Source: Erythrobacter sp. QSSC1-22B (GTDB lineage Bacteria > Pseudomonadota > Alphaproteobacteria > Sphingomonadales > Sphingomonadaceae). Taken from it: DNA of 64,000 bases. Shown here piece after piece: positions 54,465 to 58,138 of this stretch (the first letter of the stretch is position 1; every line of letters starts with the position of its first letter). The DNA is taken from assembly GCF_001678665.1 (NCBI RefSeq), contig NZ_LZRP01000007.1:124001-188000 (forward strand), written 5' to 3'. The position numbers and the translations under genes are program-made. The notes beneath the pieces were generated by a model. It worked only from the letters and a program-made list of their open reading frames with translations. It did not search any database and was not told the origin of the DNA.

Positions 54465-56351
54465 TCAGTCCGTTTTATGGGCCGCGTCCGCCAGATCGGC
54501 GGAGCGGCTGTCTGATTCCTGCCGGGCCCTGCTGGCCCGCTTGCTTGCCATTTGCCCGAGTCGCGCCTCGAATTCCAGCTTGCGCCTGAGCAGGCGTTGC
54601 TGCTCGGCGAAAGCGCCTTCGGGATCACTTTCGAAACGCGCCGTGGCATCTGCCAGGGCGGCTTCGAGCGCGGGTCTCTCGACCAGCAACGACACGGCTT
54701 CGGCCAGCTCCTCGCGCGCATCAACCGGGTCTGTGCCTTCATCGAGAAAGGCGAAACGAGATGTTTCCGGTGGGGCAGGCAGGCCTTGGATAGGCGATAT
54801 GGGCGATCCACCGGACAAATCAAGCGCTTCGGCGGTTTCGAGCAGCAAATCGATCGCCGGACCGATATTTTGGTCACGCATGGCGAGGTCGCTCAGCCCC
54901 TCCTCGTGGCGGACGATCTGGTCGGGAAAGCGCGCCAGTCCGGCGATCACCGCCACCGCCAGCGCATCGCGCCCACCGCCTGAAATCACGTGGCGCAGCT
55001 TGGCGGCGGCTTCGGGTGTGAGGGTCGGGGCGGGGCGGGGCGGCCCACCTTTTTTCCACGAACCACGCGGCGTCCACTCGCGCTTTGGGAAGGCGAAAGC
55101 GGAAAATCGCTCGGTGAGTTCGCGGCGGTAAAGCGCGCGGATATCGGGATCCGCAATCGAGTCGGCATGGTCGAGAAGGCGCTGCTTGAGGCCGGCCTTG
55201 TCCTCGGGTGAGGCGAGAGGCGACGATTCGCGTTCGACCTGCCACAGCATATCGAGCAGGCTGCTCGCACTCGCCAGCAGGTTTTCGAGCGCCTGGCGGC
55301 CCTCCTGTCGCAGCAGATCATCCGGATCGAGCCCCGAGGGGAGTTGGACGATCGCCAGCGAATGCGAAGGACGCAGCAGCGGCAGCGCGCGCTCGATCGC
55401 CCGCATCGCCGCGCGCCGTCCCGCGGCATCGCCGTCGAAACACAGGATCGGGCGTTCGACATGGCGCCACAGCAGTTCGAGCTGCTGTTCGGTCAGCGCG
55501 GTGCCCATCGGTGCCACCGCCTCGCCGATGCCCGCCTCGGCCAGGGCGATCACATCCATATAGCCCTCTACCACGATCATCCGCCCCGACTGGCGCGCGG
55601 CGGGCGCGGCGCGGTGGAGGTTGTAGAGCGTGCGGCCCTTGTCGAACAAAGGGGTGTCGGGGCTGTTGAGATATTTGGGCGCCTTGGGGTTGCTCTCGGC
55701 ATCCAGAATGCGGCCACCGAATGCGATCACCCGCCCGCGTGCGTCCTGGATCGGCAGCATCAGCCGGTCGCGGAAGCGGTCGTAAGGATCACGCTCCTCG
55801 ACCGAAATCCGCATCCCCGCCTCGACCAGCATCGGCTCCTCGAAACGCGCCAGCGCCCGGCCCAGCGCCTGGCGGCCTTCGGGCGCATAGCCGAAGCCGA
55901 ATTCGCGCATAGTCGCCGAAGAAAAACCGCGCTTGGCAAGATAGCCGCGCGCCGCTGTGCCTTCAGCCGATCCCAGATTGGCGACGAACCACTCCTGCGC
56001 CGCTGCCGTGACATCCTGCAGTCCGGCGCGCTCCTCGGCGCGGCGGGCGGACTGTGGATCGGGGGCCGGAACCTCCATACCCGCTTCCACCGCCAGTTCC
56101 TTGACGGCATCCATGAAGGCGAGCCCGCGCTGGTCGGTCATCCAGCGGATCGCATCGCCATGCGCGCCGCAGCCGAAGCAGTGGTAAAAGCCTTTGGCGT
56201 CATTGATGGTGAAGCTGGGGGACTTCTCGTCGTGGAACGGGCAACAGGCCTTGAACTCGCGTCCCGCCTTCTGCAGCCGGACATGGCGCCCGATCACCGT
56301 GCTGAGCGTGATCCGCGCGCGCAATTCGTCCAGCCATTGGGGGCTCAGCAT
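54465..56351 (-). CDS. dnaG: DNA primase
   Basis: A 628-residue primase. The zinc-binding domain has [12 protein letters not shown] and [13 protein letters not shown]; the TOPRIM core shows [11 protein letters not shown] and [12 protein letters not shown]; a C-terminal helicase-binding region follows. ATG 56351 ([10 protein letters not shown]) matches primase N-termini. Its first seven bases overlap the end of the GIY-YIG gene, and no good ribosome binding site is visible, so translation may be coupled to that gene. Confidence 0.97.
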
Positions 56352-56698
56352 GGGGGGCTGCCGGCGCTTGTAGTGGCAAACCCTATCCCGTTCGTGTCGA
56401 GCGAAGTCGAGACACGCTCGCCCGGCGGACGCGCAAAATGCGAAACTCGCTGCCAATCCCCGGCTGCCAGCGCCTCCTTCTTGGCTCGCGACCACTTTTT
56501 CACGCGCAACTCGCTTTCAAGGGCCTCGGCCCGGGTGGTAAATTCCTGACACCACACAAAGGTGACCGGGAGCCGCCGCGAGGTGAAATCGCAATATCCG
56601 CCGTATTGATGCTGGGCGATGCGCCGTTCGAGATCGTCGGTGTGGCCCGTGTAATATTTCCCGTCGGCGCATTTCAGCATGTAGCACCAGAAGGGCAT
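56345..56698 (-). CDS. GIY-YIG nuclease family protein (UPF0213) in a repeat-bounded cassette
   Basis: A 117-residue single-domain GIY-YIG protein. The two-part motif reads CYM...YYTG, with catalytic Arg in LERR and the likely metal-binding Glu in ALESELRVKKW. The domain ends near residue 92; residues 94-104 (ERVSTSLDTNG) are encoded by the left inverted repeat and the rest by adjoining DNA up to the dnaG start. ATG 56698 is chosen because the domain starts there; an in-frame ATG at 56740 lies in the right repeat. It interrupts the conserved yqeY-dnaG-rpoD order, which suggests recent insertion. Confidence 0.88.
   Translation of the reverse strand: MPFWCYMLKCADGKYYTGHTDDLERRIAQHQYGGYCDFTSRRLPVTFVWCQEFTTRAEALESELRVKKWSRAKKEALAAGDWQRVSHFARPPGERVSTSLDTNGIGFATTSAGSPPC
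56388..56418. repeat. Left 31-bp inverted repeat of the GIY-YIG cassette
   Basis: This 31-base segment begins CCGTTCGTGTCGAGC and ends GTCGAGACACGCT. It is the exact reverse complement of 56716-56746, 297 bases away. It lies within the 3' part of the GIY-YIG frame. Each copy can itself fold imperfectly (GTGTC / GACAC). Confidence 0.92.
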
Positions 56699-56715
56699 TG
56701 CGGTTCCTCCCTGCC

Positions 56716-56746
56716 AGCGTGTCTCGACTTCGCTCGACACGAACGG
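56716..56746. repeat. Right 31-bp inverted repeat of the GIY-YIG cassette
   Basis: A perfect 31-of-31 inverted match to 56388-56418, with the core TCTCGACTTCGCTCGA. It sits 18-48 bases upstream of the GIY-YIG start codon, so it would also lie in that gene's leader. Confidence 0.92.
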
Positions 56747-56795
56747 ATGGGTGCTCGGATTGGACGGGTCGTAGCCCTGCCCGATTTTGCCGTTT

Positions 56796-56820
56796 GCCTC
56801 GAGCGAAGTCGAGAGGCGCT
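56796..56820. repeat. Partial third copy of the cassette repeat
   Basis: The core TCGAGCGAAGTCGAGA, in the same orientation as the left repeat, occurs here with different flanks (CTCGAGCGAAGTCGAGAGGCGCT). It lies eight bases after the lipoprotein gene stop, outside the 31-base pair. Confidence 0.75.
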
Positions 56821-56828
56821 GATGCCGA

Positions 56829-57539
56829 TTATTCCACAGGCATTTCGGCAGGCGGGAAGGGCGCGGTGGCGGTGGCGGTCATGCCGCCCGTCTCCAGCTC
56901 CCAGGCCTCGGACGGACCTTCGGGGGGCAGGGTGGACTGCCACCAGAAGGTGATCGTCGCGCCCGGGGACCAGCCTTCTCCCGAGATCACGCGCCAGATC
57001 AGTTGGCCCTCGTCGGAGGTGACGCCGATCGCTTCACCGTCGCCCAGCGCGGTCTCGGCCTGTTCGCGCGCATAGCCGATTGAGCCGTTGAAACCGGTGG
57101 CGCGGCGCGTGGTGCGAAACAGCGTGGCGTAGGATTCGCCGCTGGCGCCATCATCGGCCGCGGACGCGGTTTCGTCAGTCGCTTCCTCCGCAGCCAGGGT
57201 TACTTGGTGGACATAGGTGTAAACCGTGCCCTCGGGCATCGCGGCGGGGTCGCAGGTCGCGGTCTCGCGCGGGCAGGCGACAAAGCTCACGATGCTGCCG
57301 ATCTCGCGCCCTTCCGCCATCAGCGGAGCCTCGACTTCGGTGCCCTGAGGGCCCTCGATCCTCGCCCCGAGCATCGCCTCGTCGTAATCGGCGGCAATCA
57401 GCGTGCGCGGCGCGGCAACGGTGGCCGTCGGGGTGGGCTCGGCCACCGCTTCGTCATCCGAGCCATCGCCGCAGGCGATCAGCGCCAGCGGGGCCAGTGC
57501 TACCGCGCCTAAGCGCAGCATCGTTCGGGACGCAATCAC
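56829..57539 (-). CDS. Predicted lipoprotein of unknown function
   Basis: A 236-residue protein with a lipoprotein signal peptide ending in lipobox LIAC (Cys23), then an Ala/Pro/Thr/Glu-rich spacer. I recognise no domain. The central part has a Cys pair (CPRETATC), and the C-terminus is Pro-rich with WWQSTLPPEGPSEAWELE. GTG 57539 overlaps the yqeY stop (GTGA); ATG 57521 would give a more typical signal peptide start. Coupling to yqeY supports real expression. Confidence 0.7.
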   Translation of the reverse strand: MIASRTMLRLGAVALAPLALIACGDGSDDEAVAEPTPTATVAAPRTLIAADYDEAMLGARIEGPQGTEVEAPLMAEGREIGSIVSFVACPRETATCDPAAMPEGTVYTYVHQVTLAAEEATDETASAADDGASGESYATLFRTTRRATGFNGSIGYAREQAETALGDGEAIGVTSDEGQLIWRVISGEGWSPGATITFWWQSTLPPEGPSEAWELETGGMTATATAPFPPAEMPVE

Positions 57540-57988
57540 GCCAGGCTCTCCTTGACCATCGCGCTGGCCTTGGCGCCATCGAGCACCGCGCCGTGGCGTG
57601 CTTTCAGCTCAGCCATGACCTTCCCCATGTCCTTCATGCCTTCCGCCCCGGTTGCCGCCTTGGCCTCGTCGATCGCGGCGCGCATCTCGTCATCGTTCAT
57701 CATCTGCGGCAGGAATTCGCCGATCACCGCCAGCTCGTCGCGCTCCTTGGCGGCCAGTTCCTCGCGCCCGCCGTCCTCGTACATCTGGATCGATTCGCGG
57801 CGCTGCTTGGCCATCTTCTGCAGGACCTCGATCACCAGCGTATCGTCCTCGGGCTGTTTGGCGGCGGTGCGCAACTCGATATCGCGATCCTTGATCTTGG
57901 CCGCGATCATTCGCAGCGTGGCGGTGCGATCCTTGGTTCCGGCCTTCATCGAGGTGGTGGTCGCGGTCTTGATGGTGTCGCGGATCAT
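57536..57988 (-). CDS. GatB/YqeY domain protein
   Basis: A 150-residue protein of the YqeY family, helical throughout: a basic N-terminal half (MKAGTKDRTATLRMIAAKIKDRDIE) and the C-terminal MGKVMAELKARHG seen in the GatB tail domain. It may help charge or bind tRNA, but its role is not settled. In Alphaproteobacteria it normally sits directly upstream of dnaG-rpoD, divergent from carA, as here apart from two intervening genes. Confidence 0.92.
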   Translation of the reverse strand: MIRDTIKTATTTSMKAGTKDRTATLRMIAAKIKDRDIELRTAAKQPEDDTLVIEVLQKMAKQRRESIQMYEDGGREELAAKERDELAVIGEFLPQMMNDDEMRAAIDEAKAATGAEGMKDMGKVMAELKARHGAVLDGAKASAMVKESLA

Positions 57989-58138
57989 GGAAAAAGCCGT
58001 TCGTAAGTGTGGATGGATTGGCGCGGACATAGAACAGCGCGCCGTAAAGCCAAGCGTTCCTGTTGACGAAATGCCCGTCTCGCTCTAGCCGCTGGGCCTT
58101 AGCACACATTGCCGACAACCCCTGATACCGGAGCGCCC

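Follow-up and report, generated by a model that had tools for sequence, protein, structure and literature searches.

What is a small nuclease gene doing between two perfectly inverted copies of a 31-nt repeat, directly ahead of a primase gene? A locus of Erythrobacter sp. QSSC1-22B raises this question, and we addressed it starting from a window of 64,000 nt, the whole stretch of DNA described, in which the following features are involved.

54465-56351, minus strand: dnaG primase gene; its ATG (56351-56349) is overlapped over 7 nt by the nuclease gene
56698-56345, minus strand: small GIY-YIG nuclease gene, 117 aa, UPF0213-related, with the motif KKWSRAKKEAL
56388-56418, no strand: REP arm of 31 nt in the 3' coding end of the nuclease gene, a perfect inverted copy, read as RVSTSLDTNG
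56716-56746, no strand: REP arm of 31 nt in the gene leader, tag outward
56790-56820, no strand: third REP copy, upstream of the leader, 84% identical over 31 nt, with an exact core at 56799-56814
56829-57539, minus strand: ORF for a lipoprotein-like protein of 236 aa between yqeY and the nuclease gene, in some relatives only
57536-58030, minus strand: yqeY, the conserved upstream neighbour

We take the primase gene to be dnaG from its sequence and from its label in a preliminary description of this DNA; the name yqeY is likewise assumed from that label.

The preliminary description had spoken of a 117-codon gene for a single GIY-YIG domain, and both the ORF and Pfam agree. Taken from a longer start at 56740 (131 aa), the ORF matched the GIY-YIG family PF01541 with an E value of 3.5e-17, and Pfam found no second domain in this 131-aa form. 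By sequence profile, the protein also matched the UPF0213 structures 1zg2 and 1ywl (E values of 1.7e-19 and 2.1e-17, about 78 positions), and is thus a single GIY-YIG domain akin to solved members of UPF0213. Its group is presumably COG2827. An AlphaFold model based on 18 sequences gave pLDDT values of 80-91 over the domain blocks in residues 1-80 and below 50 over residues 90-117, a region that takes in the REP-encoded part. The C-terminal tail, ending in VSTSLDTNG, is encoded in frame by the 3' REP arm, and a similar tail was seen in most orthologues read, L042 being one exception.

The perfect 31-nt inverted pair described earlier, with one arm in the leader and the other in the 3' coding end, is present at 56716-56746 and 56388-56418. 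The leader arm ends 17 nt ahead of the nuclease start codon. The third copy at 56790-56820 had been overlooked. The arm pair scored 31, compared with a best value of 20 among 1640 random segments of the same length from the same loci. With flank regions chosen after inspection of the loci, flanking inverted repeats of at least 14 were found at 49 of 82 GIY-YIG gene loci and at 5 of the 1640 random segments. Two loci, L053 and L054, scored only 0 and 10 because their ORF continues into a methyltransferase; in a separate inspection of flank arms, covering 41 chosen loci and the window, they scored 24 and 15. An Rfam search of 56000-57200 returned one match, far under its cut-off, and a known RNA family was rejected on this ground. 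At L053, L054, L124, L125 and L126, a second GIY-YIG paralogue runs in frame through an at least partly REP-encoded linker into an RNA-methyltransferase-like protein, which we take to resemble TrmJ/SpoU; an RNA methyltransferase is annotated as the next gene at L274.

We then asked how the gene came to lie at this place. The preliminary description had correctly reported a 7-base overlap with the dnaG start, since the nuclease reading frame terminates (stop codon at 56347-56345) shortly beyond the dnaG ATG. It had also proposed that the gene is an insertion breaking the yqeY-dnaG order, a claim that our results do not support. The order yqeY-GIY-YIG-dnaG is found in 29 of 31 close relatives (L022-L052); of the two exceptions, L042 ends at a contig end, and L044, whose contig starts just before the GIY-YIG gene, is without dnaG within 5 kb. 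In a second set, which shares several loci with the first, dnaG and yqeY adjoin the gene in 26 of 30 loci (not in L121 and L124-L126). The conserved place spans records named Sphingopyxis, Novosphingobium, Sphingobium, Erythrobacter and others. Across 29 loci with all three genes, divergence of the GIY-YIG gene correlates with that of dnaG (Mantel r=0.753) about as dnaG does with yqeY (0.775), and the window genome has one match of the gene family at E<=1e-10. Upstream of the GIY-YIG gene in three of these relatives (L023, L024, L030), the 236-aa ORF is matched by two diverged tandem copies.

The preliminary description had considered a small mobile element; as a recent insertion, the locus would be a small transposon whose terminal inverted repeats are the 31-bp arms. 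The perfect terminal arms are consistent with this, as is the variation within the genus of the window: gene and REPs are present in the window genome (G000) and in G239, and both are missing at the dnaG place in G078, G146 and G198, three genomes in which no exact REP core was found genome-wide. In G078 and G146, alignment reveals the absence of the gene and its REPs as a whole unit. Some other genomes also hold several gene-family matches, up to 7 in G168, in a plain count of matches. Multiple copies at unrelated sites, as expected of an insertion sequence, were not seen in the window genome, and in the relatives the locus is fixed. The conserved place and the divergence in step with dnaG led us to reject a recent insertion at dnaG; together with the single genomic match, they largely refute the transposon reading, which we now hold to be very improbable. 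The gene is a resident, vertically inherited one that was not itself seen moving. As evidence against mobility, the preliminary description had named the occurrence of gene and repeats at one place across related genera, combined with a lack of further repeats beside GIY-YIG genes elsewhere. The former is what we observed. The latter is not, as repeats lie elsewhere and other GIY-YIG genes have REPs.

The repeat belongs to a dispersed family. Of 298 genomes of the family, 95 contain its exact core, TCGAGCGAAGTCGAGA, in up to 117 copies, and the reversed control was found in none. A search of the window genome, as had been suggested, gave 5 exact cores in all, 3 of them at the nuclease gene and the others at two more places (reversed control, 0). 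In G108, G165, G129 and G239, most of the copies that were read form inverted doublets whose CCGTTCG tags point outward; the layout is CCGTTCG-REP, then 0 to about 25 nt of spacer, then REP-CGAACGG. This is the same arrangement as that around the gene. The doublet folds clearly better than shuffled sequences (z of -5.6), whereas single REPs of types 1-3 fold little better than shuffles (z of -0.2 to -0.9); the window REP forms a 6-bp stem with a 12-nt loop. The 31-mer is a REP. Doublets in G108 (L187-L194) often combine two different stems, with the same pairing in at least 5 of 8 stretches.

To relate REPs to the gene, we defined a strong gene as a match with E<=1e-20 against the clade A1 profile; 108 of the 298 genomes have one, with up to 17 first-look candidates scored per genome, so that some genes may be missed. 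At least 5 exact cores were found in 40 of the 108 genomes with a strong gene and in 14 of the 190 without (Fisher p=4.5e-10, uncorrected for phylogeny). A within-genus comparison was made to reduce the effect of kinship: among 40 genera with both states, gene-bearers have more REPs in 22, fewer in 5 and equal numbers in 13 (permutation p=2e-4). Counts of two additional stem types were obtained for 36 selected genomes. Of the 26 genomes that have the gene at dnaG, 22 were resolvable, and in 20 of these 22 the gene is accompanied by the stem type that is most frequent elsewhere in the genome (permutation p=1e-5), the discordant ones being G027 and G110. REP abundance follows the gene, with 14 exceptions among 54 REP-rich genomes, and gene and REP type co-vary, as they do for RAYTs.

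If the REPs were only RNA terminators or stabilisers, their match to the gene would be a by-product of shared ancestry. Such a role would suit the G239 doublets, most of which lie between long open frames, and labels and phylogeny are partly confounded. The within-genus contrast argues against it, as does the occurrence in the window genome of two GIY-YIG genes, each with a REP class of its own, and we see very little chance that this is the explanation.

The exceptions deserve a closer look. Among the 14 REP-rich genomes without a strong gene, G224 has 95 cores, G122 57, G079 52, G108 50 and G165 39; for these five (39-95 cores), gene loss is our guess. In 12 of the 14 genomes, 30 GIY-YIG loci were read, out of 45 candidate places, and none carries the window REP core. 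The full doublet was recognised by eye in 8 of 8 stretches in G108 and in 5 of 8 in G165. Four genomes (G051, G057, G071 and G202) have the highest-scoring class of gene yet 0 exact type-1 cores; type-2 cores number 33 in G057, 2 in G051 and none in G071, with G202 outside the count. The 14 exceptions could mean that the REPs are spread by a RAYT or by some other, unknown enzyme, those beside the nuclease being hitchhikers. A Y1 protein is indeed present in 6 of 20 chosen genomes searched for PF01797 (the Y1/RAYT family), including G091 with 105 cores. However, the family is missing in the remaining 14, among them the window genome and genomes with 117, 111, 108 and 95 cores, and RAYT-driven spread was rejected on this basis. 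The concentration of 3 of the 5 exact cores of the window genome at the nuclease gene, and the existence of other GIY-YIG clades with REP classes of their own, further argue against hitchhiking, which we regard as improbable.

Whether doublets come and go was addressed with 8 doublets of G239, whose flanks were joined without the doublet and then searched in four sister genomes. All 25 sister sites that were aligned, out of 32 site-by-genome cases, are without a REP core; of the remaining 7 cases, 1 matched across the junction and 6 have flanks split by other sequence. No target duplication is evident at the 8 doublets, where flanks have diverged, and about 7-16 extra bases lie beside the doublet on each side at several sites. 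These are dispersed inverted doublets whose presence differs among related genomes, as in REPINs. Clean empty REPIN sites were also sought on Sphingobium megaplasmids, and the site with 8 aligned strains gave none. This gap between dhmA and a regulator gene on the Tom megaplasmids holds one REPIN class in 5 strains, a CCTGAGCTTGTCGAAGG-core class in 2 and a mixture in 1 (L185, L207-L213); it shows turnover, not clean insertion. With a nuclease between its own palindromes, and repeats that are dispersed and variable, the parallel to REP-associated transposases drawn in the preliminary description is well founded.

Does this association extend to other small GIY-YIG genes? In 12 genomes with REPs and without a strong gene, 21 of 26 such genes are flanked by an inverted repeat of at least 14; no such repeat was found at any of 239 random segments or at 4 uvrC genes, UvrC being likewise a GIY-YIG protein. 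A CGTC or TGTC tag lies near an end of 16 of the 21 flanking arms. In tag, stem and loop, these REPs fit the CGTC-1 and CGTC-2 classes of CGTC REPs (Di Nocera 2013, PMC3733652; papers are cited here from excerpts of their text). The excerpts of that 2013 survey indicate that CGTC REPs seem to lack a dedicated transposase, that their superfamily includes the Neisseria dRS3 and Rickettsia RPE repeats, and that Caulobacter crescentus is among the species carrying them (PMC3733652); C. crescentus is reported to have three small COG2827 genes (PMC1839093). By contrast, the window REPs have another tag and a longer loop, departing from the CGTC tag, 8-9 bp stem and 4-5 nt loop of that class. The second small GIY-YIG gene of the window genome, L015 (G000:C2:156165-156380), has ATTGCGAG-type repeats on both sides; they carry a CGTC tag and score 13, just under the threshold of 14.

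REP classes are strongly clustered on a tree built from 137 GIY-YIG domains, with 29 label changes compared with a shuffled mean of 66.4 (0 of 200 shuffles as low); the REP labels were chosen after inspection of the loci, the tree has 88 columns, 43 of its 137 rows have no label on both sides, a record is entered twice in at least 5 rows, and REP class is confounded with kinship and host phylum. Outside Sphingomonadales, flanking repeats are less regular, many of L055-L101 scoring below 14. Of the plasmid records, 10 of 47 were examined; flanking repeats accompany 3 of the 5 genes bearing the K-W-R motif and none of the 5 YhbQ-like genes (controls, 2 of 86). All 47 matching plasmid records are below 60% identity, and a close plasmid relative of the nuclease was rejected. 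One plasmid relative from Sphingomonas paeninsulae, at L275:1201-1467, is interrupted by an in-frame stop, and no repeat was found on its flanks. That small GIY-YIG nucleases with the K-W-R motif form a second REP-mobilising class across phyla, unrelated to RAYTs and including the missing enzyme of CGTC REPs, is a proposal on which we are evenly divided.

We propose that the gene encodes the cognate nuclease of the REP family and is the GIY-YIG counterpart of a RAYT-REPIN system, in which the protein would cut and mobilise the repeats; we put the probability of this at roughly two in three. The protein would recognise the nearly constant core (GAGCGNAGTCGA). Cleavage might occur at or near the border of tag and stem, probably on an extruded or single-stranded doublet, and repair or replication would then place a copy of the doublet at another intergenic position. 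The enzyme would find its own target in the two REPs flanking its gene, and these may also act as an operator.

Alternatively, the nuclease may recognise REPs without spreading them, as a domesticated enzyme processing hairpins or cruciforms or as a REP-binding autoregulator, and be kept because REP-rich genomes need it. Its vertical inheritance at one place is consistent with this, and REP arms in the leader and inside the coding sequence suit autoregulation. The E. coli relative YhbQ is named a DNA damage response exodeoxyribonuclease in the match annotation, and one Caulobacter COG2827 gene is reported with an SOS box (PMC1839093, excerpts). However, stem-type matching, within-genus association and differences in doublet presence are marks of the kind from which RAYT mobilisation has been argued (PMC2817692, excerpts), and none of the YhbQ-like plasmid genes is flanked. 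We therefore judge a non-spreading nuclease to be unlikely.

Many bacterial genomes contain REPs in high copy number, and the nuclease gene offers a specific enzyme to consider, being a good candidate for the one that spreads such palindromes. An orphan nuclease family thereby gains a link to a genome-wide target, and the results suggest that two unrelated enzyme classes share the same REP-doublet lifestyle.

A connection between GIY-YIG proteins and REPs was not found in the PMC papers searched, among the matches listed and judged mostly by title and word counts. Several of these contain strings of both words; in the excerpts of one, RayT and a GIY-YIG endonuclease are given as separate, unconnected clade-specific genes (PMC9465073). 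Several known systems resemble the present one in part. GIY-YIG nucleases serve mobile DNA in homing endonucleases and Penelope-type elements (PMC1564403, excerpts), as proposed here, but the window ORF has no second Pfam domain and its putative targets are the element's own palindromes. With UPF0213 proteins (1zg2, 1ywl; YhbQ, YazA) it shares the domain over about 78 positions, whereas the K-W-R motif and the REP-encoded tail set it apart, and the five YhbQ-like members of the plasmid set are un-flanked. E. coli YhbQ and B. subtilis YazA are grouped in a review with the structure-selective nuclease Slx1 (PMC7017083), a grouping that by analogy suits a hairpin target. The nearest likeness is to the IS200/IS605-like RAYT-REP/REPIN systems, as characterised in excerpts of the papers from which our points of comparison were drawn (PMC2817692, PMC3116915). 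In both, two inverted REPs flank the enzyme gene, the number of REPs goes with the presence of the gene, REP type and gene co-vary, and REPs form inverted doublets. By contrast with RAYTs, the window protein is a GIY-YIG protein (PF01541) and not an HUH/Y1 transposase, no PF01797 match exists in the window genome, and the tag is CCGTTCG instead of GTAG.
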